Positions 4,473 to 21,748 of a DNA stretch of 64,000 nucleotides are shown piece after piece. The notes below the pieces were generated by a model. That model had not been told where the DNA came from, made no database searches, and saw only the letters and a list, made by a program, of their open reading frames with translations. The first letter of the stretch is position 1; each line of letters opens with the position of its first letter. The position numbers were made by a program, and so were the translations under genes. Where the stretch lies: NCBI RefSeq assembly GCF_000013345.1, contig NC_007777.1, forward strand, positions 372,001 to 436,000, in the 5' to 3' direction. Origin of the DNA: Frankia casuarinae (GTDB taxonomy: Bacteria > Actinomycetota > Actinomycetes > Frankiales > Frankiaceae).

Positions 4473-5000
4473 ATGGCTCGCCACAGTCGTCCTCGGTCCG
4501 CCGTCCGCGGTAACCGTCCCCGTATCGTGCGCCGGGTGGTACTGCCCACCGCAACTCTGGTCACCGCGGGAGTCGTGACCGTGGGTACGGCGTTTGCCTG
4601 TTCCAGGTCGTCCTCAGTGGCGTCGGTTCCCGGGGAAACCAGCCGCGTCGTCGCTGCCGTGGCTCGCGGCGCCGGCACCTTCCCGCCGTCGGCCGGGGAT
4701 GCGGACGCGATTGCCGAGGCGGTCCGGACGAGCTCGTTCACCGCGAATGTTCCGCCGCAGAACTACGAGGTCACCGGAACCACCCTGGCCGCCAGCGACC
4801 CGAGCTGGGCACTGACCGAGCTGCGCCCGACCGTGGCCGATCTCGACCGGGCCGAGGGTGTACTGCATCACACGGGCTCCGGGTGGGAACTGGTCCAGCT
4901 CGGTACCTACGAGGTCGGGTGTGGCGTCGCGCCCGAGGCGGTGCTGGACGACCTCGGCCTGCAGTGCCCGCCACGGGACGGCGCGGTCTTTCCGACCTGA
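4473..5000 (+). CDS. Small secreted or membrane-anchored protein, function unknown
   Basis: This 175-residue protein was not recognised. The N-terminus is rich in Arg, followed by a hydrophobic stretch (VVLPTATLVTAGVVTVGTAFAC), consistent with a signal peptide or anchor. The rest (about residues 30-175) is predicted exported and has two Cys near the C-terminus (EVGCGVAPEAVLDDLGLQCPP) that could form a disulfide. ATG 4473 is preferred over the in-frame GTG at 4464 because AGGTG sits about six bases before it. It is transcribed divergently from the two-component operon. Its stop codon abuts an 18-bp repeat array. Confidence 0.7.
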   Translation: MARHSRPRSAVRGNRPRIVRRVVLPTATLVTAGVVTVGTAFACSRSSSVASVPGETSRVVAAVARGAGTFPPSAGDADAIAEAVRTSSFTANVPPQNYEVTGTTLAASDPSWALTELRPTVADLDRAEGVLHHTGSGWELVQLGTYEVGCGVAPEAVLDDLGLQCPPRDGAVFPT

Positions 5001-5088
5001 TCTCCGGGAGTTCCGGGATCTCCGGGAGTTCCGGGATCTCCGGGAGTTCCGGGATCTCCGGGAGTTCCGGGATCTCCGGGCGGCGGCT
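4999..5088. repeat. 18-bp tandem repeat array between convergent genes
   Basis: Four near-perfect copies of gatctccgggagttccgg and one diverged copy begin at the last two bases of the upstream stop codon and end 25 bp short of the Hsp70-WD40 stop. Each copy carries the partly palindromic CCGGGAGTTCCGGG. There are no spacers, so it is not CRISPR. Confidence 0.85.
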
Positions 5089-5112: not shown

Positions 5113-7443
5113 TCAGGGGGTGTAGATGATGTCCCAGAGCCGAGCGGTCATGTCGGTACTGGTGGTGGCGAGCAGGAGGCCGTAGGGGGCGAACGCGCAG
5201 CTCATCACCGTGCTGCTGTGCCCGGTGAGGGTGGCGATCGCGGACCCGGTCGCGACGTCCCACAGTTGCGCGGTGTCGTCGGTGCTCGCCGTCGCCAGCA
5301 GGTGGCCGTCCGGGGAGAAGGCGCAGCTCTGCGCCGAACCCGGCAGAGTGAGCACGGTGGTGCCGCTGGAGGCGTCGGTGAGCCGGGTGCCCTCGTTGCC
5401 GCTCGTCGCGAGCAGCCGGCCGTCGGGGGAGAAGGCGCATCCGCCGGCGAAGTTCGTGTGCCCCGGCAGGCTCATGATGATCTCGCCAACCGTGACGTTC
5501 CACAGCAGGGTGGACTCCGCGCCGGCGGTGACCAGCAGCCGGCCGTCGGGGGAGAAGGCGCAGCCGTAGACCGAGCCGCGATGGCCGTTGAGGGTGGCAA
5601 GGTTTTTCCCGGTCGACGAACCCCACAGCCGGACGGTGCGGTCGGTACTGGTCGTGGCGAGCAGGCTGCCGTCCGGGGAGAAGGCGCAGCCGTACACGGG
5701 TCCCCGGTGCCCGGTCAGGGTCACCGTCTGGCGGGCGGCGTCAACGTCCCAGATGCGGGCCGTCTTGTCGCTGCCGGTGGTGGCGAGCAGCTTGCCGTCC
5801 GAGGAAAAGGCGCAGCCGTGCACGACCAGGCTCTTGCGTCCGCTGAGTGTGACCGACGTTCGGCCGGTGGCGACGTCCCACAGCCGGGTGCCGTCCTTGC
5901 TGGTGGTGGCGAGCAGCTTGCCGTCCGGGGAGAAGGCCGCCGAGGTGACGTCGCGTTCGTGTCCCTTGAGGGTGGCCCGCGCGGTGACCTCGACGTGGTG
6001 GGACGGGCGGCTGCTGCGCTCGAAGCCGCGCAGGTCCGCCGGCACCGCCGACCCCATCGGCACCGGCCCGGACGGAAGTGTGGTCGCCAACCAGTCGGCG
6101 TCGCGGACCGGAGTGCCGGGTGCCGCGTGGGTGTGGATGAGGCTACCCGGCGCCTCGGCGGCCAGGTCGAACAGGGAACCGTCGGTGAGGCGGACCCGCG
6201 CCAGCACGGCGCTCGCGTCGAAGCGCTCCCCGGGCTCGACGAGCCAGCGCACCATCGTCGCCCGCCCGCCGGGGATGTCCCAGCGAGCCGGTTGCAGGAC
6301 CGGATTCGGGCGCGCCGCGGTGGTCCGGCGGGTGGAGACCGAGCTTGCCCAGGCGGCGGCGCCGAGCACCACGGCGAGCTCGGGATCGGCGGGGAGGTAG
6401 ATCTGCTGCCCCGGCCAGTCGGTGCCGACCCCGAGCCGACCTTCGAGGATGTCGGTGACGACCGGGATCCGGGAGCTGCCACCGACGAGGAGCACCCCAC
6501 TCAGCTTGTCCGGTCCGTAACCGGAGGACTTCAGCAAGTGCTGGCAGCAGGCCATCGTGCGGGCCAGGATGGGGGAGGCGAGCTGGGCGAACCGGTCACG
6601 CTGCATGCTGACCAGCAGGCCGGCCGGGCTGAAAACATCCTCCACCACGGCGATGTCGGAGAGTTGATGTTTCACTGCCCGGGCGAAGTCGAGCAGCTCG
6701 TGGCGGGTCCGGTTGGCCGTGGTCTGGAACGTCTCGCCGATCCCGGGCGGATTCAGTAGCGGTTCCAGCCCCGGCCCGTACAACCCCAGGATCTCGTCGA
6801 ACAGAATCTGGTCGAGTTCGCGGCCGCCGCAGTCGTGCAGAGCCGAGTGGGAGAGCATCTCGTGCCGGCCGTCCTCACCGACCGCGACCAGCGCCCCCTC
6901 GAACGTCCCGCCGCCCAGGTCGTACACGAGCATGAGCGAGCCGGGCTCGGGCGCGACGCCGACCACCGGCGACCAGGCCGCCGCGACCGGCTCGGCGAGC
7001 AGGTCCACGTCGACGAACCCGGCGGCCTCCGCTGCGGCGATCATCGTCCGGCGCAGCGGGCCGGCGGGATCGTAGCTCGCCGGTATCGTGACGACGGCCC
7101 GCGACAGCGCCGCACCACCGAGCTGCTGTTCGGCCTCGGCCTTCAGCGCGGACAGCACCGCGGTCACCAGCACGTGCGCCGGATAGCTGCGGCCGTCGAG
7201 TGACACGGCGCTGTCCCGGGCCAGATCGCGCTTGACCTCGCCGCGGTACGCCGCGGGCCAGATCCGCTTGCGCCGCTCGGCGAGCGTGCCGACGATCAGG
7301 CTGCCGCCATCCACGAAGACCGACGCGGGCCAGCTCGCCGAGCCGCTCGCGGGCTCCTTCACCGGTTCGATGCGACCGTCGACGGCCAAGGCGGCCGAGG
7401 CACTGCAGGTGCCGTAGTCGATGGCGAGGATCGGCTCGCCCAC
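5113..7443 (-). CDS. Hsp70-type ATPase fused to a lipoyl-like domain and a seven-bladed WD40 propeller
   Basis: This 776-residue chimera starts at GTG 7443, eight bases after an AGGGGG ribosome site. Residues 6-365 form an Hsp70 nucleotide-binding domain: phosphate-1 loop IDYGTCSASAA, phosphate-2 YDLGGGTFEGALV, and adenosine motif LLVGGSSRIPVV. The substrate-binding domain and lid are absent. Residues 392-456 resemble a biotinyl/lipoyl hammerhead (RWLVEPGE, APGSLIHTHAAPGTPV), but the lysine position reads TDG (T420-G422) instead of TDK. Residues 493-776 hold seven WD40 repeats (AFSPDGKLLAT, ARIWDV type), enough for a closed propeller. No membrane segment is seen. I infer an ATP-gated scaffold with WD40 as the client-binding part. 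It follows a hypothetical gene and a two-component pair on the same strand. Confidence 0.92.
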   Translation of the reverse strand: MGEPILAIDYGTCSASAALAVDGRIEPVKEPASGSASWPASVFVDGGSLIVGTLAERRKRIWPAAYRGEVKRDLARDSAVSLDGRSYPAHVLVTAVLSALKAEAEQQLGGAALSRAVVTIPASYDPAGPLRRTMIAAAEAAGFVDVDLLAEPVAAAWSPVVGVAPEPGSLMLVYDLGGGTFEGALVAVGEDGRHEMLSHSALHDCGGRELDQILFDEILGLYGPGLEPLLNPPGIGETFQTTANRTRHELLDFARAVKHQLSDIAVVEDVFSPAGLLVSMQRDRFAQLASPILARTMACCQHLLKSSGYGPDKLSGVLLVGGSSRIPVVTDILEGRLGVGTDWPGQQIYLPADPELAVVLGAAAWASSVSTRRTTAARPNPVLQPARWDIPGGRATMVRWLVEPGERFDASAVLARVRLTDGSLFDLAAEAPGSLIHTHAAPGTPVRDADWLATTLPSGPVPMGSAVPADLRGFERSSRPSHHVEVTARATLKGHERDVTSAAFSPDGKLLATTSKDGTRLWDVATGRTSVTLSGRKSLVVHGCAFSSDGKLLATTGSDKTARIWDVDAARQTVTLTGHRGPVYGCAFSPDGSLLATTSTDRTVRLWGSSTGKNLATLNGHRGSVYGCAFSPDGRLLVTAGAESTLLWNVTVGEIIMSLPGHTNFAGGCAFSPDGRLLATSGNEGTRLTDASSGTTVLTLPGSAQSCAFSPDGHLLATASTDDTAQLWDVATGSAIATLTGHSSTVMSCAFAPYGLLLATTSTDMTARLWDIIYTP

Positions 7444-7819: not shown

Positions 7820-8425
7820 TTACCGATCCGTCCGGGTAATCCATCGGCTGGGGCGCCAGGGCGCGCGACGCAGGTCGCCCATGGCTGCCGCCAGCCCGGC
7901 TACCTGCTCGGCGGCCTGCTTGCCGAGATCAACGGCCACGGTGCGCGGTAGCGAGGACCCCTCGCCCGGGATCGTGCGCAGCCGGGCGACCACCGGTCCG
8001 AGCCGGATGATCTGAAGGTAGCCCGCGAGCGAATCGCCGGTGACGAGATGCAGGTGGGCGGACCCGGCCGTGCCGTCCGTGACGGGCCTGGCCCGGGCGA
8101 CCAGGCGTCGGGTGAGTGCGGCGGCCCGCCGGTTGTTGCGCAGCAGCCACCGCGAGTCGTCCAGCCGGTACAGATCCGCGTCCGGGGTACCCAGCCAGAT
8201 CGCGTGCCCACGGTGCACCGCCTGGATCTCACGGCCGTCCGCCTCGGGATTCGTGCCGTCACCGGGGATCGGTTGGTCAGCCGGATGGGCCGTCGCGACG
8301 TCGGGAGATCTGATCCGCCACATGCCGACGGGGAGCGCCTCCGGTCCCAGGAACGACCCGCGGAAGGCCGCCCAGAGACGACAGGACCGCGGATGACCCT
8401 CATCCTCGCCGCCTCCCCCGCCCAT
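7820..8425 (-). CDS. Hypothetical protein
   Basis: This is an unrecognised protein of about 201 residues from the ATG at 8425. An ATG at 8323 (MWRIRSPDVATAHP) would give 167 residues and is equally possible, since neither has a clear ribosome site. The middle part (IWLGTPDADLYRLDDSRWLLRNNRR) and C-terminal part (HLHLVTGDSLAGYLQIIRL) look like a soluble alpha/beta protein. No signal peptide or membrane helix is seen. It lies 70 bp downstream of the NarL-like regulator and upstream of the Hsp70-WD40 gene on the same strand, so co-transcription is plausible. Confidence 0.55.
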   Translation of the reverse strand: MGGGGGEDEGHPRSCRLWAAFRGSFLGPEALPVGMWRIRSPDVATAHPADQPIPGDGTNPEADGREIQAVHRGHAIWLGTPDADLYRLDDSRWLLRNNRRAAALTRRLVARARPVTDGTAGSAHLHLVTGDSLAGYLQIIRLGPVVARLRTIPGEGSSLPRTVAVDLGKQAAEQVAGLAAAMGDLRRAPWRPSRWITRTDR

Positions 8426-8495
8426 CCTGACGAGGGTGTGACCGAAGCCGGCGCAGGGCAATCCCTCGAAATCAAGGGGCCTCAATCGAGGGGGC

Positions 8496-9302
8496 TCAGC
8501 CGAATCCGAGCTCGCGGGCCCAGAGGGCGGCCGCGGTGCTGGGCGGGATCGTCGCCGGGGCGTCGGGATGGCTCGCCACGTACTTCGCCTTCGCCGTGCG
8601 CAGATAGTCGGCGACGACACTGGCCTTGACGTTCATCGCCCGCGCCGCTTCCCGGTGGGACATACCCCGGCAACCGACGAGGACCATCACCTCGGCCTCC
8701 CGCGGGGAGGGCCGGTGCAGGCGGCGCCGTCGGCGGGCGGCGTCGAAGATTCGATCGAGCAGGTCGTGCACGGCGGCGGCGGTCATTCCCCACTCGCCGC
8801 GCAGCTCGTCAATGAGGTCGCCCTGGGCGAGTCCGCGCAGCAGGTTCCGTTCCCCGGGGCCGATCTCGCCCCGGGACAGCGGTCGCCGGTGCGCATCCTC
8901 CAGCAGAAACCCGGCGAGGCGGGCGGAGACGTGGAAGCTACCCCCGGCGACGGCGGTCACCGCCGCCACGAACTGCTGGGCCGGGGCGGTCTTCTCGACG
9001 AAGCCGCGAGCCTGCGCGGCGACCGCGTCGAGGACCTCGTCCGGTGTCGCAACCCCGGAGGTCGCCAGCACCCGAAGACCGCGTCGATGCAGGTCGGCCA
9101 CGGCGGCGGCCCCGGACACCCCGGGCAGGTGCAGGTCGCACACCACGATCCCGGGCGTGGTGTCCCGGTCGAAGGTCTCCAGGCTCGGGGCCGGCGCCAG
9201 CACGGAGAACCCCGCGCCGGCGAACCTGGCGGCCAGCGATTCGGTGGCGATCGGATGATCGTCGATGATCGCCACCGAGACCGGCCGGCGATCGACGCTC
9301 AT
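8496..9302 (-). CDS. NarL/FixJ-type response regulator
   Basis: This is a 268-residue regulator. The receiver has VAIIDDHPIATESLA, the phosphoacceptor Asp in VVCDLHLPGVSG and the conserved Lys in GFVEKTAP. The C-terminal helix-turn-helix (PSPREAEVMVLVGCRGMSHREAARAMNVKASVVADYL) follows the LuxR/GerE plan but has diverged. An extra helical linker of about 60 residues (near 130-190) separates the two domains. The start overlaps the end of the kinase gene by 4 bp, so the two form a cognate pair. Targets are unknown, but the downstream hypothetical and Hsp70-WD40 genes are candidates. Confidence 0.9.
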   Translation of the reverse strand: MSVDRRPVSVAIIDDHPIATESLAARFAGAGFSVLAPAPSLETFDRDTTPGIVVCDLHLPGVSGAAAVADLHRRGLRVLATSGVATPDEVLDAVAAQARGFVEKTAPAQQFVAAVTAVAGGSFHVSARLAGFLLEDAHRRPLSRGEIGPGERNLLRGLAQGDLIDELRGEWGMTAAAVHDLLDRIFDAARRRRRLHRPSPREAEVMVLVGCRGMSHREAARAMNVKASVVADYLRTAKAKYVASHPDAPATIPPSTAAALWARELGFG

Positions 9303-10549
9303 CGGCCGGTCCCGGGCGCGCCGGCTCCGGTCGGCTCGGCGGCGGGCCAGCGGAAGGTCACCTTCGTCCCATCGCCCGGCCAGGCGGTCACCAGGGTCTC
9401 CCCGCCATACCGGCGCAGGGCGGAATAGCTTCCGGTCATGCCCCCGCCCGCTCGGACGGAGCCGGGATCGAACCCCACGCCCCTGTCCCGGACGACCACC
9501 AGCACCGAATCCGCGTCGCCCTCGACGAAGAGGTGGACCTCGTCGGTGCTGGCGGAGTGTCGGACCACGTTGCGCAGGGCCTCCCTCGTCGCGGCCACCA
9601 GTGCCTCGCGGACCTCCGCGGGCGGTTCGCCCTTGATCGACACGAAGGGCACCAGGGCGAGCCCCTCGTCGGCCAAGGCGTCCACGACCGCGGACATCAT
9701 CTCCTCGAGGCCGTTCTGGGTGGAGTCCGGTGAAGCCGTGCCGTCGACGGCCAGGGCCCGCGGGTCCATCCCGCGTGGATCCATGATGATCCGACGCGCC
9801 CGCTGTGCCCCGCGCCGGGCCTCCCGGACGAGTGCCGGTGAGGGCACTCCACCGGCGGCAACATGATCGACGACGGGGAGCAGGTAGTCGTGGATCTCCC
9901 GATGGGTGATCTCACGCTGGCGCAGGCTTTCGGCCTCCTTCTCCTGCTCGATCGCGAGCCGCCCGGCCGCCGCGGCCTCGTCCTGGGCGGCCGCGGTCGC
10001 CGCGCAGAGCGCGCGCAGCTCGCGGGCGATGAGCATGGCGACGACGTACCACAGGGCGAAGCCCAGCAGGTCCGAACCGAGCTTGAGGGAGACATCCGGC
10101 AGCACGGCCAGGCTCCATGCCGCCATCAGGACGGCCACCGCACCGACCGCGAGCAGCGTCAGCCCGAGGCCGAAGCCGATGCCCGCGGGTGCGACGAGGC
10201 TGAACGGCACGAGCTCAGTCATGATCTTGTTGCGTTCGTCGGGTTGCGCGGCTCTGGACCCGACGAGCATCAGCGCCACGCAGAAGGCGACGTCCGCCAG
10301 GACCAACCGGGGGGACAGCCGGCCCGGCCGCCGCCAGACCCGCCAGGTGAACCAGGATGCCTCGACGGCCGCGGCAGCCACGATCAGCACGGCGATCCAC
10401 GGGTGGCGCAGGCGAGCCCAGCCGAAGAGCGGGATGATCACGAACGTCGCACAGGCTGCTCGGGTGTAGCCGACCATCCGGGACATGCGTTGCTCGGTAC
10501 GTTGGATGACGTCGCAGGAAGAAGCCGCCGATCCAACCAGCCCGGTCAT
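9299..10549 (-). CDS. NarX-like membrane sensor histidine kinase
   Basis: This kinase has about 416 residues from the ATG at 10549. The frame is open to an ATG at 10651, but that would leave only 17 bp to a divergent gene. Several membrane helices occupy the N-terminal half (from ACATFVIIPLFGW onward), with little external loop. A coiled helix (EQEKEAESLRQREITHREIHDYLLPVVDHVA) carries the HisKA_3-type His-Asp. The ATPase shows an N-box-like EALRNVVRHSAST and G1 VRDRGVGFDPGS. It belongs to the HPK7 class that pairs with NarL-type regulators, and it overlaps its regulator gene by 4 bp. The stimulus is probably membrane-borne or intramembrane. Confidence 0.85.
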   Translation of the reverse strand: MTGLVGSAASSCDVIQRTEQRMSRMVGYTRAACATFVIIPLFGWARLRHPWIAVLIVAAAAVEASWFTWRVWRRPGRLSPRLVLADVAFCVALMLVGSRAAQPDERNKIMTELVPFSLVAPAGIGFGLGLTLLAVGAVAVLMAAWSLAVLPDVSLKLGSDLLGFALWYVVAMLIARELRALCAATAAAQDEAAAAGRLAIEQEKEAESLRQREITHREIHDYLLPVVDHVAAGGVPSPALVREARRGAQRARRIIMDPRGMDPRALAVDGTASPDSTQNGLEEMMSAVVDALADEGLALVPFVSIKGEPPAEVREALVAATREALRNVVRHSASTDEVHLFVEGDADSVLVVVRDRGVGFDPGSVRAGGGMTGSYSALRRYGGETLVTAWPGDGTKVTFRWPAAEPTGAGAPGTGR

Positions 10550-10668
10550 AGTGCGCAACGGTAGCGAGCCAGCCACAGATCGACCAGCGTCTGCCAGCGC
10601 CTGACCAGAAGGAGCGGGCATCTGGTCGTCCCGGTGTGTGAAGAGGGCCATCCGGGCACCGCAATCAG

Positions 10669-10917
10669 ATGCAGACCACGTATCCCGTCATCGTCACGGT
10701 CGCGCCGCCGGGTCCCGGCCCGACGCCACCCGAGCCCTCGCCGCCCTCGCCGATCCCCGATCCTGTTCTGCCCGGTCCCGAGCCGACGCCACCCGAGCCC
10801 GCGCCGGATCCGGTACCACCGCCCGGCCCGGGGCCGGATGTTCCGATCCCGCCGAACCTGCTGGTCCTCCCGCCAGCCGGGAATCGCGCCGCCGGAATGG
10901 GTAGACCGAGGGCATGA
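10669..10917 (+). CDS. Small proline-rich protein (doubtful)
   Basis: This would be an 82-residue peptide dominated by PPGPGPTPPEP-type sequence, beginning MQTTYPVIVTVA. No ribosome site is obvious. The only support is that its stop overlaps the start of the DUF6158 gene by 4 bp (ATGA) and that it faces away from the kinase operon. Proline-rich frames arise easily from G+C-rich DNA, so it may be spurious. Confidence 0.35.
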   Translation: MQTTYPVIVTVAPPGPGPTPPEPSPPSPIPDPVLPGPEPTPPEPAPDPVPPPGPGPDVPIPPNLLVLPPAGNRAAGMGRPRA

Positions 10918-11162
10918 TGCACCGACCAGCTGGAATTCCCGCGCAGGAGCTGACCGACGTCGATCTCGTCCGAGAGCTGCGGCACCTGCATCGTACCCGG
11001 CACGATGCCTTCATCGCGGGGAGCGAGGACGCCTTCGAGACCCACACCGCACGGATGCTGGAGCTCGAACGCGAATACCTGCGGAGGTTCCCGGACGCCG
11101 CGAGTCCCGATCCGCGCCGGACCCGAGCCGGCAGACGGCGTGCCGCCGGAGTTCCCGTCTGA
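10914..11162 (+). CDS. DUF6158-like small protein
   Basis: This 82-residue soluble helical protein reads IPAQELTDVDLVRELRHLHRTRHDAF, then a second helix (HTARMLELEREYLRRFPDA), then an Arg-rich tail. I recognise the pattern as the short actinobacterial family DUF6158, whose function is unknown. Two amphipathic helices suggest a helical hairpin or dimer. It overlaps the upstream proline-rich frame by 4 bp and ends at a short 14-bp repeat tract. Confidence 0.7.
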   Translation: MMHRPAGIPAQELTDVDLVRELRHLHRTRHDAFIAGSEDAFETHTARMLELEREYLRRFPDAASPDPRRTRAGRRRAAGVPV

Positions 11163-11206
11163 GCGGTTTCAGGGGCGCGGTTTCAGGGGCGCGTGGCTTC
11201 AGGGGC
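11163..11206. repeat. 14-bp tandem repeat at a convergent gene boundary
   Basis: Two copies of gcggtttcaggggc and one diverged third copy lie between the DUF6158 stop (11162) and the end of the VWA gene (stop at 11199-11201). The period is not a multiple of three, unlike the arrays inside genes. Confidence 0.7.
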
Positions 11207-13166
11207 GGACGCGGGTGAGCGCGTCGAGGTAGATGTCGACCACCTGGCTCGGGTCCGGCCGGAGGTAGGAGCGTCCTGCGGTCGCCGCGGCGATGCGCGA
11301 CAGCGCGGTGAGGTCGGCGTCGTTGCTGTAGGCGATCATGATTATGGCGACCGGCCGCTTCGGGTCGTACTCGGCGTGCAGCTGTTCGATCAGGCTGTCC
11401 AGGCTCGGCGCGGCCGCACCCCGGTTCGTGTCGCGACCGTCGGTGAGGATGACGACCTGGTTGAGCCGGCCGGGGACGTAGTGCTGGGTCAGGAAGCGGA
11501 AGGCCGCGAGCGTGGTGGCATACAGATCGGTGGCTCCGCCGGGGACGATCCCGGCCTGCGCGGCGATCAGCTCGTCCCGATGGGTGCCGCCTCGTCCGGG
11601 TGCGTTGAGCGCAGCCATCGGCACGAGATCCCGGTAGCCCTGGACTCCCTGGGCGCCCTGCTCGCCGGAGAACCGCCAGAGACCGACCTGGCTGTCGGGT
11701 GCGAACAGGCGCAGGCCGGCCAGGGAGGTCTCGACGGCCGCCTGCAGCCGAGTTCTTGACGGGTCGGTGCCCGGGACCGGTTCGGCCATCGATCCGGAGC
11801 TGTCGAGCGCCACGAGGGTGGCACCACGCTGACGGGCATGGCGGAAGAACCGCCGAGCCGTGCCGAGCGTGCTGTCGGAGGCGTCCGTGCTCGCCAGCTT
11901 CGGCGGGACGGAGCGCACCCCGTCGGTCGCGTTGAGCGTCCCGGCCAGCCCGCCTGGGTCATCGTGGCCCGCCAGCTCGGTGGGTGTGCGGAAACCGGCT
12001 CCGCTGAGAGCCGCGCGGCCCGCGTCCCCGCGCAGGAACGCGGCGAAGGCGTCCGCCGCGGCCCGCCGGGACGACGAGCTCGCCGTCTTCTTCAGGACGA
12101 TGTACGGCACCGTCGCCGTGAACATCCCGTCCGAGGGGTAGGACGCCACCAGCGTCGTGGTCGGGGGGTTACCGTTCTGGCTTGTCAGGGACCGGTTGTA
12201 GGCGATGACATCGGCCTCCAGAGCCGGGAAGGCCGAGGGAGCGGATCCGGCCGCGCCGTTCTCCGTGCCGCCGGTGCGCACCGAGTCGAAGAGTTGCTGG
12301 TCATACTCTGGCAGCCAGTCGATGGAGCGTTCCTGCCGGAGCACGGTGAGCTGGGCCGCGCGATCCTGGTCGAACGTGCCGGTGGTCATCTCGGCCGCGG
12401 TGAGTCCGCGGGCGGCGCCCACCGTTGCGATGACGGCCCGCAGCGCGGCGGCCGAGTGCTCCGGATTGGCCATGGCGAACCGGAAGTCCCCCCACTGGGG
12501 CTCGCCCCGGTGGGTCCAGAAATCGGCCTCGCCCGCGGCCGCGGCCAGTTCGGCCCAGGTCACATGATGTTCGGGCCAACCGAGGCGCTGTGCCATGAGT
12601 CTCGGCATGGCGATGACGACGGGCGATCCCGCGATCGTCGTGGCCTTCGCCGGCAGTTTCGCCGTGACCGGGTCCGATTCCTGGCCCAGCTCCAGCCAGT
12701 CGGCCGACTCCGGGATCCAGACGTCGGGCGGCCCGGGGGAGTCCGGCGACTCCGGCCGGGACAGCGTGTCGAGCACCCGGTCGGAGGCGACCACCGACAC
12801 GGCGAGGGTCACGCACGGGCCCGCCGAGCCCTCGGCACCGGCGCGCTGACGATCGAAGTCGGCGGCGAGCCGGCTGATCGGCGCCGCGAGTGCCGGCGCG
12901 GTGGTGATGGTCAGGGTGGCCCGTTCGCCGCCGTCCGCGCATTCCCCGGCCGATCCGGCATCCCAGGCGGCGCGGGCCGCGAACCCGATCCCGGTGGCGG
13001 TCAACGCGCCCAGTACAAGCAGCGCCGCGCCGCTGACGATGCCCAGGCCGACGGTGACGGCACGGCCGCGGCCACCGGCCCGGGACCCGCCATACCGGGA
13101 CGCGCCGTGATGGGACGCGCCACCACGAAATCTGTTGCGGCGGGATCGATGGCGGGCGTCGGACAC
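11199..13166 (-). CDS. Substrate-binding and VWA domain fusion protein (extracytoplasmic)
   Basis: This is a 655-residue protein. After an Arg/Gly-rich cytoplasmic N-terminus of about 35 residues comes one membrane helix (AVTVGLGIVSGAALLVLGALTATGI region, near 36-62). Residues about 85-420 resemble a class II periplasmic solute-binding domain (SBP_bac_11 type): TLTITTAPALAAPISRLA, DVWIPESADWLEL, ATVPYIVLKK. Residues about 450-655 form a von Willebrand A domain with MIDAS residues: TLVALDSSGSM, GGATDLYAT, ILTDGRDTN. Known actinobacterial proteins share this order; no transported substrate is established. A 290-bp spacer (13167-13456) before it is moderately A+T-rich near 13370-13440 and may hold the promoter. 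Confidence 0.9.
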   Translation of the reverse strand: MSDARHRSRRNRFRGGASHHGASRYGGSRAGGRGRAVTVGLGIVSGAALLVLGALTATGIGFAARAAWDAGSAGECADGGERATLTITTAPALAAPISRLAADFDRQRAGAEGSAGPCVTLAVSVVASDRVLDTLSRPESPDSPGPPDVWIPESADWLELGQESDPVTAKLPAKATTIAGSPVVIAMPRLMAQRLGWPEHHVTWAELAAAAGEADFWTHRGEPQWGDFRFAMANPEHSAAALRAVIATVGAARGLTAAEMTTGTFDQDRAAQLTVLRQERSIDWLPEYDQQLFDSVRTGGTENGAAGSAPSAFPALEADVIAYNRSLTSQNGNPPTTTLVASYPSDGMFTATVPYIVLKKTASSSSRRAAADAFAAFLRGDAGRAALSGAGFRTPTELAGHDDPGGLAGTLNATDGVRSVPPKLASTDASDSTLGTARRFFRHARQRGATLVALDSSGSMAEPVPGTDPSRTRLQAAVETSLAGLRLFAPDSQVGLWRFSGEQGAQGVQGYRDLVPMAALNAPGRGGTHRDELIAAQAGIVPGGATDLYATTLAAFRFLTQHYVPGRLNQVVILTDGRDTNRGAAAPSLDSLIEQLHAEYDPKRPVAIIMIAYSNDADLTALSRIAAATAGRSYLRPDPSQVVDIYLDALTRVRP

Positions 13167-13456: not shown

Positions 13457-14185
13457 CTACCCGGGCTGGGTGTGCGTGTCGCCGCTGGCGAGGTCGGCGG
13501 GGGTTTCGAGGTCGGCGGGGGTTTCGAGGTCGGCGGGGGTGTTGACGTCGGCGGGTGAGCCGGTGCCGTCGCAGGGCACGCCGGTGACCTCTCCCGGGTG
13601 GGCCCGCAGCCACGCCCGGGCGCCGGCCTCGCCGCGCGCGAGAGCCGCCACCTCGGGCCAGACCGAGCGGCGTAGCAGGACGGGATGGGCCGGCCGGCCT
13701 CCGTAGGTGGCGGTCATCGCCGGATGGGCCGACCCCGGGTCGGCCGCGGCGGAGATCAGACGTTGCACCGCCGCCGCGCCGAGGGAAGGTTGGTCCACCA
13801 GGGTGACAACCACGGCGTCGGTGTCGGTGCCGACCAGGGCGGCGAGACCGGCCCGCAGCGACGCGCCGACACCCTCGGTCCACCGCGCGGCCGATACCAG
13901 GCGAACCTCCGGTATCAGGCCGGCCGTGGGTTCCAGGCCGATCTCGGGCGCATCCCAGCCCGCGGGCGCCGGCCCGGCGACCCGGCGGGTGGCGAGGCGT
14001 CGCACGACGATGCCCACCTCGTCCGCGGCGGCGCCGGTGACGACCACGACCGGCCGGCAGCCCCCCGCCGTGAGCAGGCGGACACCCCGCTCGACCAGCG
14101 TCACACCGCCCAACTCGACCAGAGCCTTGGGGCGTCCCATCCGCCGTCCTGCCCCGGCAGCGAGCAGCAGACCGGCGACGTTCAC
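13457..14185 (-). CDS. MobA/MocA-like nucleotidyltransferase
   Basis: This 242-residue cytoplasmic protein of the NTP_transf_3 family typically transfers CMP or GMP to molybdopterin. It has the signature nucleotide loop LLLAAGAGRRMGRPKALVEL at residues 6-25, VVVVTGAAADEV, and the metal-binding Asp in VVVTLVDQPSLGAAAV. HPVLLRRSVWPEV and the late GARAWLRAHP segment match the family. No molybdoenzyme or moa/moe genes are nearby, so the exact cofactor role is open. The last 25 or so residues (TPADLETPADLETPADL) come from an 18-bp in-frame repeat and are probably dispensable. Confidence 0.85.
   Translation of the reverse strand: MNVAGLLLAAGAGRRMGRPKALVELGGVTLVERGVRLLTAGGCRPVVVVTGAAADEVGIVVRRLATRRVAGPAPAGWDAPEIGLEPTAGLIPEVRLVSAARWTEGVGASLRAGLAALVGTDTDAVVVTLVDQPSLGAAAVQRLISAAADPGSAHPAMTATYGGRPAHPVLLRRSVWPEVAALARGEAGARAWLRAHPGEVTGVPCDGTGSPADVNTPADLETPADLETPADLASGDTHTQPG
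13490..13555. repeat. In-frame 18-bp minisatellite at the 3' end of the nucleotidyltransferase gene
   Basis: Two exact copies of gaggtcggcgggggtttc are followed by two diverged copies. On the minus strand they encode repeated ETPADL hexapeptides near the C-terminus. Confidence 0.85.
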
Positions 14186-19885: not shown

Positions 19886-20917
19886 ATGCAGCCGCCGGAG
19901 GGCCCGCAGGTGGTCGCCGAGGTTGTCCGGGGGCTGCGCGGCGGTGCGCCGTTCGTGGAGAGTTGCCATCACGGCACCGTCATCGGCCTCGGTCGGGATG
20001 GGGACAGCGCGCTCACCGTCGGCGTGCCCGACCACCCGATCTTCCCCCGATCGGCGGTCAAGCCCCTTCAGGCCGCCGCGATGCTTCGTGCCGGGCTGGA
20101 CGGCATCTTCCTGAGCCGGGAGATCCCCGGTGACCTGCTTGCCATCGTGTCCAGTTCCCACAGCGGCGAGCCGGTGCATCTCGCGCGGGTGCTGGAGATC
20201 CTCTCGGTAGCGGGCGTCTCCGTCGACACCCTGCGCTGTCCCGCCGATCTTCCGTTGGGCCCGGCCGCGGCCCAGGCGCACCTTCGCGCCGGGGGCCGCG
20301 CGGAGCCGGTGCTGATGAACTGCTCCGGCAAGCATGCGGGGATGATCGCCTGCTGCGTGGCGGCCGGCTGGCCGATCGAGAACTACACCGACCCCGATCA
20401 TCCGTTGCAGCAGGTGATCCGGCGCACGATCGAGGAGCTGATCGGCGAGGAGATCGTCGCGACCAGCGTGGACGGGTGCGGGGCCCCGTTGTTCGCGTTC
20501 TCGCTCACGGGCCTGGCTCGCGGGCTGCGGGCGATGGTCCGGGCCGCGCCGGGCGGCCCCGAGCGGCGGGTCATCAACGCCATGCGGGCGCATCCCGAGC
20601 TGATCGGGGGTGTTGGCCGGTCCGACACCGACCTGATGCGGGCGGTACCCGGCGTCGTCGCGAAGAACGGCGCCGAGGGTGTCACGGTGGTGGCGACGTC
20701 CGAGGGTCACGCGGTCGCGGTCAAGATCGCGGATGGGAGCGGGCGGCCCGGCGTCCCGGTCGCGCTGGCCGTGCTGACCCGCCTGGGTGCTCTTCCCGGT
20801 CCGGACGCCCCCGGGCACCAGGAGCTCGACTTCGCCCAGCTCGCCGTGCTCGGGGCGCCCACGGTGCTCGGCGGCGGGCGCCCGGCCGGTTCCCTACGCG
20901 TGCGGCTACCGGTCTGA
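19886..20917 (+). CDS. Asparaginase II family (Rhizobium-type) amidohydrolase
   Basis: This is a 343-residue cytoplasmic enzyme expected to hydrolyse L-asparagine to aspartate and ammonia. It belongs to the Asparaginase_II family, unrelated to E. coli AnsA/AnsB. Conserved active-site groups are visible: FPRSAVKPLQA (Ser and Lys), SSSHSGEPVH (second Ser), MNCSGKHAGM (Cys and Lys that bind zinc in the Rhizobium enzyme) and SVDGCGAPLF (second zinc Cys). Length matches the family. The stop overlaps the convergent J-domain gene by 12 bp. Confidence 0.93.
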   Translation: MQPPEGPQVVAEVVRGLRGGAPFVESCHHGTVIGLGRDGDSALTVGVPDHPIFPRSAVKPLQAAAMLRAGLDGIFLSREIPGDLLAIVSSSHSGEPVHLARVLEILSVAGVSVDTLRCPADLPLGPAAAQAHLRAGGRAEPVLMNCSGKHAGMIACCVAAGWPIENYTDPDHPLQQVIRRTIEELIGEEIVATSVDGCGAPLFAFSLTGLARGLRAMVRAAPGGPERRVINAMRAHPELIGGVGRSDTDLMRAVPGVVAKNGAEGVTVVATSEGHAVAVKIADGSGRPGVPVALAVLTRLGALPGPDAPGHQELDFAQLAVLGAPTVLGGGRPAGSLRVRLPV

Positions 20918-21478
20918 TCCGGGCGGGGGAGTGCGGTCGGCGCGGACGCCCCGGTCCTCGCCTGCTCGGGGACGGGGGTCGGAAGGCGCCCGACGGGGAC
21001 GGCTCGCCACGGTGACCGCGACGGGTGGGATCATCGCCGCGACCACCATCATGATCATGGCGGCGGTCACGGAGTACAGCCGCACCACGGTGCCTGCCGA
21101 GATGAACAGGGTCAGCGCCACCAGCATCAGGGCGAGGTAGCGGCGACGGACCATCGGATCGGCACCCGGGCCCGGTGCACCCGGGCCCGGTGCGGATGGG
21201 CCCGGTGATGATCGGCCCGGCGCGGATGGGCCCGGTGATGATCGGCGCGGCGCGGACGGGTGAGGCGTGCCGGCGGCGAGGCGCAGGTCGTAGCGGCGCC
21301 GCCGGTCGGGGTCGCCGAGAACGCGGTAGGCGAGGGTGACCCGATCGAAGGCCGGTGACGAACCACCGGCGTCGGGATGGGTGCGGCGGGCGGCCACGCG
21401 GTAGGCATGCCGGATCTGCTCGGCGGTGGCGCTGGGCGGTACGTCCAGCACCTCGTACAGCGAGCGTTGCACGCGCAT
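20906..21478 (-). CDS. Membrane-anchored J-domain (DnaJ-like) protein
   Basis: This has about 190 residues from ATG 21478, preceded by AGGAG at eight-base spacing; an in-frame ATG at 21496 lacks such a site. The N-terminal J domain has SLYEVLDVPPSATAEQIRHA and the Hsp70-activating HPD (RRTHPDAGG). A Ser/Pro/Gly/Ala linker built from 30-bp repeats follows. Two hydrophobic helices come next (YLALMLVALTLFISAGTVV and TAAMIMMVVAAMIPPVAVTV). The tail is Arg/Pro-rich. It would recruit an Hsp70 to the membrane. Whether it serves the Hsp70-WD40 protein 14 kb away is unknown. Confidence 0.88.
   Translation of the reverse strand: MRVQRSLYEVLDVPPSATAEQIRHAYRVAARRTHPDAGGSSPAFDRVTLAYRVLGDPDRRRRYDLRLAAGTPHPSAPRRSSPGPSAPGRSSPGPSAPGPGAPGPGADPMVRRRYLALMLVALTLFISAGTVVRLYSVTAAMIMMVVAAMIPPVAVTVASRPRRAPSDPRPRAGEDRGVRADRTPPPGSDR
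21163..21262. repeat. In-frame 30-bp repeat in the J-protein linker
   Basis: About three copies of a 30-bp unit composed of related halves (ggcccggcgcggat and gggcccggtgatgatc) encode SSPGPSAPGR-type decapeptides between the J domain and the membrane helices. Beyond it the period loosens to GAPGPG units. Confidence 0.75.
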
Positions 21479-21748
21479 CGGGGTGTCTCCTGCCATTGCC
21501 GACCACCCGACCGGGCGGCCGCGAGCCCGGTGTCATGGCGAAAGTACCTACACATGACCAGAATGGGCCTTGGACGGCCCGGGGCGAGCGCGAGTCGGGA
21601 GGCCGGGACAGCGGCAAAATAGGATTTTCTGTGCGTTGTGGCTCTTGGCTCTCAGGATCGTCTTATCGGGCGTGCCGGCCTCATTCCGGTTCGGCCGACG
21701 GCGCGCTCGGGGCGCCGCGTGCACACCAGGGTGGGACAGGATGGGTGG

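Follow-up and report, generated by a model that had tools for sequence, protein, structure and literature searches.

The gene analysed here lies at positions 5113 to 7443, on the minus strand, of a 64,000-nucleotide stretch of the Frankia casuarinae genome (contig NC_007777.1, positions 372,001 to 436,000; hereafter the window), the genome itself being a single contig of 5,433,628 bases. It encodes 776 residues from a GTG start at 7441-7443, and residues are numbered here with this GTG as residue 1 (the Pfam query, P0001, starts 3 residues earlier). The frame has its stop at 5113 and is open upstream as far as 7788; the gene end at 7443 fits because conservation among relatives starts at the GTG, which is preceded by AGGGGG. 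Read along the minus strand, one intact frame encodes, in this order, an Hsp70 nucleotide-binding domain, a lipoyl-like middle domain and a WD40 propeller. The strand of the gene and the conserved middle domain are additions to the initial annotation of this locus. A perfect 18-base tandem repeat of 4.6 copies was also observed at window positions 4999-5080, between the stop of the fusion gene and the next gene.

Residues 1-370 (window 6334-7443, minus strand) form an Hsp70 nucleotide-binding domain, and the initial annotation was right to call it intact. The Pfam HSP70 profile PF00012 matched residues 82-368 of P0001 at profile positions 98-371 of 599 (E 1.2e-31), and none of the 17 NCBIfam models listed for the protein reached its cut-off. 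An AlphaFold model of residues 1-478, built from 45 aligned rows, placed residues 1-370 at a pLDDT of ~90, and the 50 Foldseek matches listed for the ATPase model were all DnaK/Hsp70-family entries (for example 4rtf at rank 44, with a TM score of 0.84 on the target). None of the 27 orthologues deviates at the catalytic residues D9, T12, K71, E151, D175, G179 and T180, which align with D8, T11, K70, E171, D194, G198 and T199 of DnaK, the columns being compared against the window genome's own DnaK in the alignment. At the position of DnaK Asp201, the window and other rows have Glu and some rows have Asp; the Glu may slow hydrolysis. The ATPase motifs are intact, and the fusion protein is a putative ATPase.

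The remainder of an Hsp70 is missing. The PF00012 match to the fusion protein stops at position 371 of 599, compared to a match from 1 to 598 for the window genome's own DnaK, indicating that the peptide-binding sandwich and lid are absent, as had been noticed at the outset. The alignments also revealed no hydrophobic interdomain linker of the VLLLDV type behind the ATPase domain. Moreover, the positions of DnaK R167 and N170, presumably the contact positions for J-proteins, are occupied in the fusion protein by Asp147 (codon at window 7003-7005, minus strand) and Ala150, both of them invariant in the alignments. Because of these two substitutions and the missing linker, ordinary J-domain control of the fusion protein appears unlikely. 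This includes control by the product of an HPD-type J-domain gene (identified by eye) at window 20906-21496, ~13 kb from the fusion gene, which the initial annotation had named for an ATPase assay with and without J-domain proteins.

At the other end of the chain, residues 484-774 (window 5122-5994, minus strand) form a complete seven-bladed WD40 propeller. Pfam WD40 (PF00400) matched in seven stretches (E 7.2e-64), in agreement with the seven C-terminal repeats counted initially. Prediction of the full chain with AlphaFold from 20 rows, a check suggested with the initial annotation, modelled the first half poorly (mean pLDDT 59.7) but placed 28 strands at 484-774 with pLDDT values mostly above 80. 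The layout of this model, in which one N-terminal strand is followed by six full blades and three C-terminal strands, is that of a closed seven-bladed ring as predicted by AlphaFold. The WD40 domain of PkwA (5yzv) likewise has seven blades and resembles the propeller closely (TM 0.94-0.95 on the target, 41-42% identity), but the PkwA entry is named as a Ser/Thr kinase, whereas the fusion protein carries an Hsp70 ATPase in front.

Between the ATPase and the propeller, residues ~387-457 constitute a separate conserved domain. Conservation across residues 371-487 is about the same as that of the ATPase and the propeller, slightly higher in some rows and slightly lower in others. When a profile of the middle part was run against 393 genomes of the class, it recovered the 27 orthologues and 8 further weak matches. 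Six of these 8 fell in register on the lipoyl domain of E2 acyltransferases (recognised as E2 by eye), and the other two were a short frame with stops and another protein. A search of PDB sequences at E values up to 10 returned only four entries, all biotinyl or lipoyl domains and all weak (E 0.23-1.3). With Pfam, 7 of 15 middle-part rows touched PF00364, the best at a weak E of 0.036; the window's middle sequence alone gave nothing relevant, with DUF346 at E 0.2. Profile-profile comparison by hhalign with 29 biotinyl/lipoyl domains, which came from six genomes and were picked independently of the fusion protein, gave a probability of 93.6% (E 2.2e-7, score 40.4) over 60 columns, from a shallow middle-part alignment (Neff 1.3). 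Among the controls, the best of 60 column shuffles scored 13.4 and a reversed profile 10.3.

These results strongly indicate, at the level of profile similarity, that the middle part is kin to biotinyl/lipoyl domains and that residues ~383-460 (window 6064-6297, minus strand) represent such a domain without its cofactor lysine. Gly422 (codon at 6178-6180, minus strand) aligns with the lipoyl/biotinyl lysine and is Gly in 27 of 27 orthologues; the hairpin turn is free of lysine in all of these, and three have a lysine elsewhere in the middle domain. Both AlphaFold models predicted strands in this part, but at block pLDDT values of ~25-61, which are too low for a confident model, and the barrel-sandwich hybrid fold is putative. 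The E2 acyltransferase domains (PF00364) resemble the middle part in profile, aligning in register along most of the domain, but they carry the cofactor lysine in place of the invariant glycine, and the fusion protein has no acyltransferase in its chain. Three other identities for the middle part were considered. A disordered linker is disfavoured by a conservation approximating that of the flanking domains and by a dN/dS below that of both other parts in 10 comparisons (see below). For a remnant of the Hsp70 beta-domain, hhalign found no similarity (0.1%, score 9.7, against a control of only 2 sequences), and for a relative of the biotin domain of pyruvate carboxylase, the middle profile never exceeded 3 bits, and just 5 carboxylases gave any score. 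Going by the profile evidence, a pseudo-lipoyl domain would occupy the place of the Hsp70 substrate domain directly behind the ATPase, and not the propeller, to which the initial annotation had assigned that role.

With residues 1-494 as the query, an orthologue was recovered from each of 26 further genomes (71-90% identity), that of G007 as two pieces of one open frame. The gene is present as a single copy in 27 of 35 genomes of the family, namely in all 13 of the window's genus and in 6 of 6 and 8 of 8 genomes of two other genera. It is absent from all 8 family genomes in four further genera, four of these genomes being less than 90% complete. No member was found outside the family among the 393 class genomes searched by profile, and among 396 genomes of the phylum searched in the same manner, the window's own copy was the only one at E 1e-5. 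Counting that of the window, all 27 chains show the order ATPase, middle, propeller in one open frame each, which rules out the frameshift or join near 6000-6270 that had been named as the case against the fusion. That 27 of the 35 family genomes carry one orthologue with the same three-part chain likewise implies that the fusion is no product of assembly.

Comparison of 10 of the 26 possible relatives with the window gave dN/dS values of 0.13-0.34 for the ATPase, 0.06-0.22 for the middle and 0.13-0.34 for the propeller, so that all three parts are under purifying selection. The middle (residues 383-460), with ~78 codons only, had a smaller value than either other part every time. In the Pseudofrankia-type comparison its dN (0.191) was no lower than that of the propeller (0.189), and only its dS was higher. 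Vertical inheritance of the fusion gene is the best reading. Given purifying selection on all parts, a single copy and a distribution that follows genus, a housekeeping role is favoured for the fusion protein and an arms-race sensor disfavoured.

The surroundings of the gene were compared in the named relatives, comprising 20 records of Frankia, Parafrankia or Pseudofrankia, with three locus types assigned by neighbour genes. Upstream of the fusion gene in the window are genes for a response regulator (8496-9302, minus strand; PF00072) and a histidine kinase-like protein (9299-10651, minus strand; PF02518). The initial annotation had placed the fusion gene behind a two-component pair, and this arrangement is steady among Frankia-type loci, where tblastn found the upstream regulator in 11 of 11 and the kinase in all 6 with enough upstream sequence. 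It does not extend to the other types, however, as the pair was found by tblastn in none of the 8 Parafrankia- or Pseudofrankia-type loci that extend 4.8 kb or more upstream. A frame at window 7820-8620, lying between the fusion gene and that of the upstream regulator, has no Pfam match; tblastn located its product in the corresponding position of all 11 named Frankia-type loci (37-50% identity). A further two-component pair lies downstream on the same strand, from window 1644 to ~4100, and consists of an OmpR-type regulator and a HAMP/HisKA kinase according to Pfam. The regulator of this pair was detected by tblastn within the available stretch in 4 of the 11 Frankia-type loci, at 95-97% identity.

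The only neighbour detected in every one of the three locus types is a divergently oriented DUF6158 gene (10914-11162, plus strand; PF19655, E 6e-28), the other neighbours changing from type to type. It was found near the fusion gene in the window and in 12 of the 14 named loci whose upstream sequence reaches 4.8 kb or more (75-93% identical); in the two exceptions, L100 and L101, the available stretch may end short of it. Directly downstream of the fusion gene and on the same strand, all 5 Pseudofrankia-type loci have a pyruvate carboxylase gene (identified by eye). The window's genome has this gene on the opposite strand at a distance of ~8 kb; in two other genomes, a carboxylase gene that appears to be the same one lies ~22 kb (G003) and ~16 kb (G019) from the fusion gene. 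A Pfam scan of 9 neighbours detected neither GrpE nor DnaJ, nor any GTPase, tubulin or MoxR domain; one of the nine (11199-13166) matched VWA_2 at E 0.00034, below the curated cut-off, beside a solute-binding domain. The PADLOC defence library produced one weak repeat-type match (25.1 bits). A gene for a MobA-like nucleotidyltransferase at window 13457-14185 was seen to carry a short NTPADLETPADL repeat at the C-terminus of its product.

Fusions of an Hsp70 ATPase to other domains are numerous in actinobacteria, with ends that include WD40, PQQ-like and other propellers, membrane anchors, and solute-binding and lectin-like domains (all but WD40 assigned by eye). Two of 30 Hsp70 loci examined, both in Parafrankia-type genomes, have WD40 repeats, the ends having been cut ~500 residues behind the ATPase domain. 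A further protein of this kind is encoded at L061. The Hsp70-WD40 and Hsp70-PQQ-like proteins (PQQ-like by eye) of Parafrankia-type genomes at L058 and L061 also have an ATPase domain followed by a propeller, but no lipoyl-like domain was seen in them, and the ATPase domains of L061 are ~28-30% identical. In a tree of 26 ATPase domains, the three-part family forms one clade (100/100) on a long stem, while the L061 proteins group with other fused actinobacterial Hsp70s (98/96). Since the L061 ATPase domains sit in another supported clade, their WD40 fusions and that of the three-part family most likely arose separately, as far as this tree can tell. Several single loci were also recorded: L061, in genome G019, has three Hsp70-propeller proteins (two WD40 and one PQQ-like by eye) in one 19-kb stretch; L050, in genome G017, encodes a DnaK chain followed by a TIR-like stretch (by eye); and L038 (2491-5370), in the window's genome, encodes an Hsp70 ATPase, a proline/glycine-rich stretch, a membrane segment and an end resembling a phosphate-binding protein (rear parts by eye). 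The best-ranked literature matches, a coverage outside which most subscription papers fall, contained no description of the three-part chain, nor is it mentioned in the portions of PMC8195603, PMC7159879, PMC5587647 and PMC8215388 that were available. Passages of the CcI3 transcriptome paper (PMC3188489), matched without a locus tag, hold no statement on the fusion gene.

Based on the data presented above, we tentatively favour, at somewhat under even odds, a vertically inherited, ATP-switched scaffold that is not a protein-folding chaperone. The scaffold proposed in the initial annotation survives as the likeliest reading, and its observation of a missing peptide-binding domain beside a retained ATPase site is upheld. 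The Hsp70-type ATPase would open and close with ATP binding and hydrolysis, its nucleotide state moving the two lobes. Behind it, in the place of the peptide-binding sandwich, the lipoyl-like barrel lacking its cofactor lysine could act as a rigid coupling or docking module, and the C-terminal propeller would grip a fixed partner protein. If the propeller does hold such a partner, the nucleotide state would therefore alter the presentation or release of that partner. We infer both a dedicated partner and allosteric coupling within the chain.

DnaK and the fusion protein share the ATPase fold, the phosphate and adenosine motifs and the catalytic residues, and with this fold intact and an HPD-type J-domain gene ~13 kb away, the protein might still be a diverged chaperone or helper, in which the propeller recruits one particular folding client, or else a DnaK complex, while the ATPase serves the Hsp70 cycle or acts as an Hsp110-like exchange factor. 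We regard this as unlikely: DnaK has a peptide-binding domain, a lid and a VLLLDV-type linker, whereas the fusion protein has none of these, carries other domains behind the ATPase and has an invariant Asp/Ala pair at the J-contact positions, and neither GrpE nor DnaJ was matched in the scan of 9 neighbours. A switch in innate immunity or conflict, resembling the STAND ATPase-WD40 proteins, in which the propeller senses an invader and the ATPase drives assembly, is rather improbable. The layout of ATPase and WD40 does resemble APAF-1-type chains, and the text available from PMC7159879 describes Hsp70 proteins without a peptide-binding domain in actinobacterial and firmicute conflict systems. 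According to the same portion of that source, however, the Hsp70 of the GAP1-N2 systems, which like ours is an actinobacterial Hsp70 domain without the peptide-binding part, consists of the Hsp70 domain only and stands beside GTPase systems, whereas the fusion protein has two extra domains. The core genes of the GAP1-N2 and ternary systems (GTPase, tubulin, vWA-MoxR) were not found by Pfam among the 9 neighbours, the single VWA_2 match and the PADLOC match both being weak, and a single-copy gene in three genus groups whose propeller is under purifying selection in the 10 comparisons made argues further against a conflict role.

The profile resemblance between the middle domain and the lipoyl domains of E2 enzymes raises another explanation, namely that the protein regulates or assembles a lipoyl- or biotin-dependent enzyme, its lysine-less domain mimicking the swinging-arm domain of a 2-oxoacid dehydrogenase or pyruvate carboxylase. 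The carboxylase gene adjoining the fusion gene in the Pseudofrankia-type loci, and ~8 kb off in the window's genome, is consistent with this, but its distance in G003 and G019 may point to mere regional synteny, and the middle profile scarcely registers on the carboxylases tested; we hold the explanation to be as improbable as a conflict role. A bolder version, to which we give slightly less credence still, would make the Hsp70-type ATPase a machine of central metabolism, with the lipoyl mimic, devoid of its lysine, docking into the complex of a 2-oxoacid dehydrogenase or carboxylase under the control of the ATP state, and with the propeller as a bridge to another protein. As for a decayed or functionless fusion, the narrow distribution, with 8 of 35 family genomes lacking the gene, could be taken in its favour, but an open frame in 27 of 27 orthologues and dN/dS values well below 1 for all three parts in the 10 comparisons make decay scarcely credible.

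Were the metabolic version true, the protein would amount to an ATP-controlled clamp on swinging-arm enzymes. The middle domain represents a further case of a lipoyl-like domain that is retained after loss of the cofactor site, and the family as a whole, which spans three genus groups, has kept the Hsp70 motor under selection without its peptide-binding half and together with two non-chaperone modules. If the coupling between these parts is real, the protein would offer a clean system for asking what in Hsp70 allostery is a property of the ATPase domain by itself.
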